Origin: Bryobacterales bacterium
GTDB lineage: Bacteria; Acidobacteriota; Terriglobia; Bryobacterales; UBA6623
DNA: 64,000 nt
Assembly: GCA_022823865.1 (NCBI GenBank)
Contig: JAJEHF010000065.1
Span: 1 to 64,000, forward strand
Reading direction: 5' to 3'
Position 1 is the first letter of the stretch. Every line of letters starts with the position of its first letter. Below are positions 51,314-51,790 of this stretch, piece by piece. The position numbers and the translations under genes were made by a program. The notes under the pieces were generated by a model. The model was not told the DNA's origin, made no database searches, and saw only the letters and a list, made by a program, of their open reading frames with translations.

Positions 51314-51319
51314 TACAAT
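51314..51319 (+). promoter_or_regulatory. candidate -10 (TACAAT), leaderless
   Basis: TACAAT ends six bases before the ATG of the OsmC-like gene. Confidence 0.5.
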
Positions 51320-51325
51320 GTGCGC

Positions 51326-51790
51326 ATGGGCGATCTCATCCACACTTCCAAGATCCGCATCCACCAGGATCAGCCCCCCGAGCGCCGCGCCTACATCGAA
51401 GGCTTTGAAGAGCCGCTGGAATTCGGCGTCCACGGGGGGATCAAGCACTTCTACGGCATGGAGCCGCGGCGCGACCTTCCGGCCACGCTGGACCACATGG
51501 TCGCGGCGGTGGGCGGTTGACTGACCGGCACTCTGTCAGGGGCCCTGGCAGTCCGTAAGATCCCGAACCATCCCGATCGCGTACAGAGCGACATCGAGGG
51601 GGACATCGAAAACGTCGACGGCGTCATGCGCATCACGCGGATCCGCGTGCACTACCGCCTGAAGATCCCGGCCGGCACCCGCGACCGCGCGCAGCGCGCC
51701 CTGGACACCCACCAGGTCAAGTGCCCGGCCGCGATGAGCGTCAAGGGATCGATCGACATCGAAACCAGCGCGGACATCGAAGAGATCTGA
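51326..51790 (+). CDS. OsmC-like peroxidase, probable selenoprotein (TGA = Sec65)
   Basis: A 154-residue OsmC-family thiol-dependent peroxide reductase read through an in-frame TGA at codon 65 (51518-51520). Before it: IRIHQDQPPERRAYIEGF and DLPATLDHMVAAVGG. After it, in the same frame and without a shift: LTGTLSGALAVRKIPN, QSDIEGDIENVDG, HQVKCPAAMSV and a normal TGA stop. In this family the residue between GG and LTGT is the peroxidatic cysteine, and C133 (KCPAA) is its partner. TGA therefore sits exactly where cysteine, or selenocysteine in known OsmC-like selenoproteins, belongs. A hairpin follows at once. The sequence alone cannot exclude a nonsense mutation or a sequencing error, and no sel genes lie in the window. 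Confidence 0.8.
51518..51553 (+). promoter_or_regulatory. candidate bacterial SECIS hairpin
   Basis: Starting inside the TGA, GACTG (51519-51523) can pair with CAGTC (51549-51553). CAGG (51537-51540) pairs with CCTG (51544-51547) around a GGC loop about 20 nt after the TGA. A G at the loop start and this distance fit the general bacterial SECIS pattern. An alternative hairpin is CTGAC (51521-51525) with GTCAG (51535-51539). No folding energy was computed. Confidence 0.5.

Follow-up and report, generated by a model that had tools for sequence, protein, structure and literature searches.

Introduction

OsmC-like selenoproteins have been known since 2005, with selenocysteine (Sec, U) in a UxxT motif (Zhang et al., 2005; PMC1088965). 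A 2026 review gives them a single OsmC row, with the same UxxT motif (PMC13188914), and NCBI models them as the NCBIfam family OsmC_like_Se (NF041052). Most OsmC-fold proteins that have been tested are thiol peroxidases; Escherichia coli YhfA, which is without the Arg and Glu of Ohr/OsmC, is uncharacterised and has no known activity (PMC8945050). Our search of the literature, mostly open access, found no description of an acidobacterial OsmC selenoprotein.

Here we analyse an OsmC-type gene in a 64,000-nt stretch of DNA from a Bryobacterales bacterium (contig JAJEHF010000065.1, positions 1 to 64,000; hereafter the window). A first-pass annotation, made from the sequence without database searches, had read the gene as encoding a probable selenoprotein. 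The observation itself, an OsmC-type gene with an in-frame TGA at the reactive site, is confirmed.

The motif of the window protein is GGULTGT, or UxxGT, with the threonine at +4 instead of +3, and thus departs from UxxT. The protein scores 16 bits against NF041052, for which the cut-off is 95; two other subfamily sequences (L064 and L063) score 28 and 22 bits. The nearest NCBIfam model is OsmC, at a sub-threshold 24 bits. For comparison, a true NF041052 member (L074) scores 179 bits, carries U-L-L-T (AFULLTQ) and shares about 17% identity with the window protein, and the genome that holds it (G524) also has a member of the UxxGT subfamily. One detail of the first-pass reading changes: the window protein lies outside the family that NCBI models, in a sister subfamily. 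These scores and motifs lead us to treat the gene as belonging to a distinct subfamily within the known OsmC selenoprotein kind. Separately, two loci with stop-free frames of 738–803 codons (L075, G401:C31; L076, G190:C24) contain two tandem NF041052-like stretches each, possibly OsmC domains that were duplicated or fused to something else.

Reading frame and coding constraint

The features of the locus are as follows.

51314..51319, forward strand: TACAAT, resembling a -10 box, 6 nt upstream of the ATG and likewise spaced in most members of the genus
51326..51790, forward strand: osmC-like selenoprotein gene, 154 aa with Sec at codon 65, called from the open frame, the Pfam OsmC match, TGA orthologues and purifying selection upstream and downstream of the TGA
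51518..51520, forward strand: predicted Sec-UGA, codon 65, at the OsmC/YhfA reactive-cysteine position; Cys in orthologue L034
51533..51551, forward strand: predicted bacterial SECIS hairpin CUGUCAGG-GGC-CCUGGCAG, apical loop GGC 20 nt after the UGA, within the invariant codons 64–75
51722..51724, forward strand: Cys133, predicted resolving partner of Sec65; the sole Cys, family-invariant and matching the second Cys in E. coli OsmC and YhfA

The first-pass annotation had the frame continue through the TGA at codon 65 into the second half of an OsmC domain, including the partner C133, with the TGA at the reactive cysteine of the family. All of this was borne out. The frame is open from codon 65 to a terminal stop, also TGA, at 51788–51790. 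With C placed at codon 65, Pfam OsmC (PF02566) matches residues 55–147 (E 5e-11; 43.3 bits, cut-off 27.5), as it does all 12 of the 12 members of our alignment A3, and position 65 aligns with the reactive Cys of both E. coli OsmC and YhfA. Under the standard code the ORF stops at 51520, after 64 residues, and the second half of the gene has no in-frame ORF of 60 residues or more, so ordinary gene calling is expected to truncate the gene. By itself, an open frame of 89 codons is weak evidence in such GC-rich DNA, since 12% of base shuffles are open as well.

Purifying selection is more informative. Against six relatives at 82–88% identity, dN/dS (NG86) is 0.05–0.11 before the TGA and 0.06–0.17 after it; the equally low values past the TGA argue that the downstream part is translated and selected. 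Synonymous divergence is about 0.8–2, near saturation, everywhere outside codons 64–75, which show zero nucleotide changes across eight related sequences. Of the other 142 codons, 14 are invariant in these eight, in runs no longer than two, and the nucleotide invariance of codons 64–75 stops at the end of the hairpin 3' arm. Judged from these alignments, conservation of the gene as read through the TGA is far beyond chance.

Upstream, the spacing of TACAAT (or TACSAT) to the ATG is conserved in the genus and the remaining DNA diverges. Positions 51314–51325 have no Shine-Dalgarno-like sequence before the ATG. This suggests that TACAAT is a likely promoter element and that the transcript is leaderless or nearly so.

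Selenocysteine machinery

The source genome (6.07 Mb, 231 contigs, 94% complete) encodes selA (518 bits), selB (369.6 bits) and selD (302 bits), each above its curated cut-off, together with an above-cut-off tRNA-Sec with a UCA anticodon. All four genes that the first-pass annotation named for checking are thus present. Two peroxiredoxin-family (AhpC/TSA) genes of the same genome each contain one in-frame TGA:

G000:C75:2244-2612 (L089): AhpC/TSA gene with in-frame TGA, context GGUTREM
G000:C68:28473-28868 (L090): AhpC/TSA gene with in-frame TGA, context DWUPFC

In both, a hairpin follows the TGA with its loop at 20–23 nt, and one of the two shares the GGC loop; at -7.2 and -7.4, their energies narrowly miss the published model's limit of -7.5. 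L089 and L090 are likely further selenoproteins. The complete machinery and these two genes support the earlier view that this bacterium uses selenocysteine, and on all genomic evidence the source organism is a maker of selenoproteins.

Conservation of the UGA

We searched 150 related genomes and obtained 26 full-length orthologues. One internal TGA stands at the aligned position in 25 of them and a Cys in the remaining one (L034, context GGCMTGT). The genome of this lone Cys orthologue (G075) is without selB (best match 112 bits, where the cut-off is 242), and L034 keeps neither of the two hairpin types described below; its loop reads CGA. Among the TGA-bearing genomes tested, selB scored above cut-off in all but G147, a fragmented, 85% complete assembly with no selB match, where the absence is probably due to incompleteness.

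The same TGA protein occurs at 99% identity in four other genomes of the genus, and the nearest named records for the gene are Bryobacterales (Acidobacteriota) metagenome-assembled genomes, also at 99% protein identity. More distant genomes that keep the TGA include one assembled as a single contig (G008) and one in three contigs (G014). With the TGA common to near-identical and distant genomes, including a single-contig one, a base error is very unlikely.

In a phylum survey of an even draw of 396 Acidobacteriota genomes, each match that covered the codon contained a single TGA; apart from the window gene there were 31 of them. Nine of the 31 were read individually, and all nine have the TGA at the aligned position. 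Outside Acidobacteriota, a TGA orthologue was found in one Eisenbacteria and one HR33 genome (two loci). One genome (G229) has two copies of the subfamily, on C298 and C440, with the TGA in both. In G055 the osmC gene and selB are on the same strand with 776 bp between them, but they were not accepted as an operon: an opposite-strand von Willebrand-like ORF intervenes, and there is no tRNA-Sec at that place.

Two hairpins

The stem CUGUCAGG/CCUGGCAG in the window has 8 bp and an energy of -10.3 kcal/mol, and the hairpin fits published bacterial SECIS limits (as quoted in PMC13188914). Of the structure proposed in the first-pass annotation, the inner stem is real and longer than stated, but the outer stem GACTG/CAGTC is not kept: a close relative (L028) has CAGCT there. 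Close relatives that keep the TGA also keep the hairpin, which is invariant among them. Folded as a single sequence, the region is not unusual for such GC-rich DNA (z = 0.42), and 1.6% of synonymous shuffles reach an equally good fold, so the case for it rests on the comparison of relatives. Because nothing in it varies, the hairpin is backed by invariance and not by covariation. An Rfam search of the window returned no match.

All other lineages examined have a different hairpin, roughly GGCGCRCU-GG(A/C)-RGYGCGYC, whose loop lies 26 nt past the UGA. Over 18 distinct sequences, 97% of the cells of this 26-nt hairpin are paired and three pairs show two-sided changes. Its covariation score was reached by none of 500 shuffles, and sliding the partner by 1–3 columns reduces pairing to 23–62%. 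One covarying pair couples a synonymous site with a residue-changing one (LEVR versus LEAR).

Of the eight pairs of the 26-nt hairpin, four are left in the window lineage (G014 and the genus of the window gene), where it is broken; the other lineages have 3–5 of the eight pairs of the 20-nt hairpin, which is absent there. The 26-nt type is most simply taken as ancestral, since it occurs in every other lineage examined, other phyla included. From these alignments we infer that the SECIS of the window lineage was rebuilt 6 nt (two codons) upstream, without an indel and with the frame unchanged. The heptamer CUGGCAG is apical in L032 and forms the 3' arm in the window. A diverged homologue (L047, in G148) has Cys in the context AARCLVTTF and a decayed 26-nt hairpin with a CGA loop, which looks like a fossil SECIS left by a Sec-to-Cys change.

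Fold and reactive residues

The AlphaFold2 model (pLDDT 82.5) has the OsmC fold. Its top Foldseek matches are OsmC/Ohr proteins (probability 1.00; best PDB match E. coli OsmC), at a high rmsd of 11–14 A, so active-site details cannot be read from the model. A phmmer search of the single protein against PDB gave no match, and a profile search against PDB matched OsmC/Ohr with E-values from 5e-4 to 0.6. In the alignment with OsmC and YhfA of E. coli, invariance is limited to A61, position 65 and C133. For comparison with the catalytic Arg/Glu of Ohr/OsmC, R20 and D56 are invariant in the family, in an alignment to OsmC/YhfA at about 17% identity. By hhalign, YhfA is slightly ahead (E 1.4e-4 versus 3.1e-4 for OsmC), and E. 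coli YhfA likewise has GG ahead of the reactive residue and a matching pattern in the preceding helix.

Interpretation

If the TGA were a true stop, the locus would be a pseudogene or encode a truncated protein of 64 residues. The end of the standard-code ORF and the ease with which GC-rich DNA stays open over 89 codons would fit. Selection past the TGA nevertheless equals that before it, the same TGA with an intact downstream frame recurs in more than 50 orthologues, and a Cys version appears only where selB is missing; we regard this reading as highly improbable and, on the comparative evidence, already refuted. A sequencing or assembly error is less credible still. The TGA is one base away from TGC or TGT and the draft assembly comprises 231 contigs, but many independently assembled genomes share the codon, G008 and G014 among them, and by that count this explanation too is already refuted. 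If the UGA were decoded as some other amino acid, such as Trp or Gly, or passed by unspecific readthrough, the frame would equally be open. This reading is very hard to reconcile with a gene that also ends in TGA, with the presence of SelB and a tRNA-Sec that has a UCA anticodon, with Cys at this position in homologues and with a hairpin under selection. The machinery, the conserved TGA and hairpin, and the Cys orthologue in a selB-less genome all support the selenoprotein interpretation first put forward in the first-pass annotation.

The substrate leaves more room for doubt. It is quite possible, if not our preferred view, that the selenoprotein is a YhfA-like redox protein acting on another substrate (e.g. 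persulfides or other electrophiles) and not a hydroperoxide reductase. The GG and helix pattern and the slight hhalign preference point that way, towards a protein whose activity is not known. Against this stand the record of tested OsmC-fold proteins as mostly thiol peroxidases (PMC8945050) and the nearest NCBIfam model, which is OsmC, though sub-threshold.

Hydroperoxide reduction is the role that we prefer. With near certainty, the gene would specify a Sec-bearing OsmC-fold enzyme made by hairpin-directed Sec insertion, most likely acting in hydroperoxide reduction, with a SECIS rebuilt 6 nt nearer the UGA. By known bacterial Sec biology, SelB carrying Sec-tRNA-Sec would bind the hairpin that starts 12 nt after UGA65, and Sec would be inserted there in place of termination. 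From Ohr/OsmC biochemistry (PMC8945050) we infer a peroxidase role: the most likely reaction is the reduction of organic hydroperoxides, or of a related oxidised substrate, in which Sec65 would become oxidised and form a selenenylsulfide with Cys133, to be reduced in turn by a dithiol, e.g. of a lipoylated protein. In the window lineage the hairpin appears to have been rebuilt closer to the UGA than in all other lineages examined.

More broadly, we think it probable that this is a second OsmC selenoprotein subfamily, almost always with Sec, that spans Acidobacteriota and at least two other lineages, is missed by current models and had its SECIS relocated by 6 nt (26 to 20) without an indel. 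The bacterial selenoproteome would gain a subfamily so far overlooked, in which a standard-code reading stops after codon 64 and which the NCBI seleno-OsmC model misses. The Sec/Cys pair, with a close Cys version in a selB-less genome, would allow a clean test of the benefit of selenium in an OsmC-fold enzyme. Two hairpins on orthologous genes with an almost constant protein would make a testbed for what SelB recognition needs and, if the relocation is true, a natural before-and-after pair for SECIS rebuilding inside coding sequence.

Comparison with known systems

The OsmC selenoproteins of Zhang et al. (2005) and NF041052 share with the window protein the OsmC domain, a Sec at the reactive position that starts the central helix and a second conserved Cys; they differ in having UxxT where the window protein has UxxGT. 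E. coli YhfA (COG1765), OsmC and Ohr have the same fold and the same two reactive positions, but all three use Cys where the window protein would use Sec, and YhfA and OsmC are 16–17% identical to it. Set against the bacterial SECIS consensus (model in PMC13188914), orthologous genes of the subfamily carry hairpins of two unrelated kinds, one with its loop at 20 nt and the other at 26 nt.
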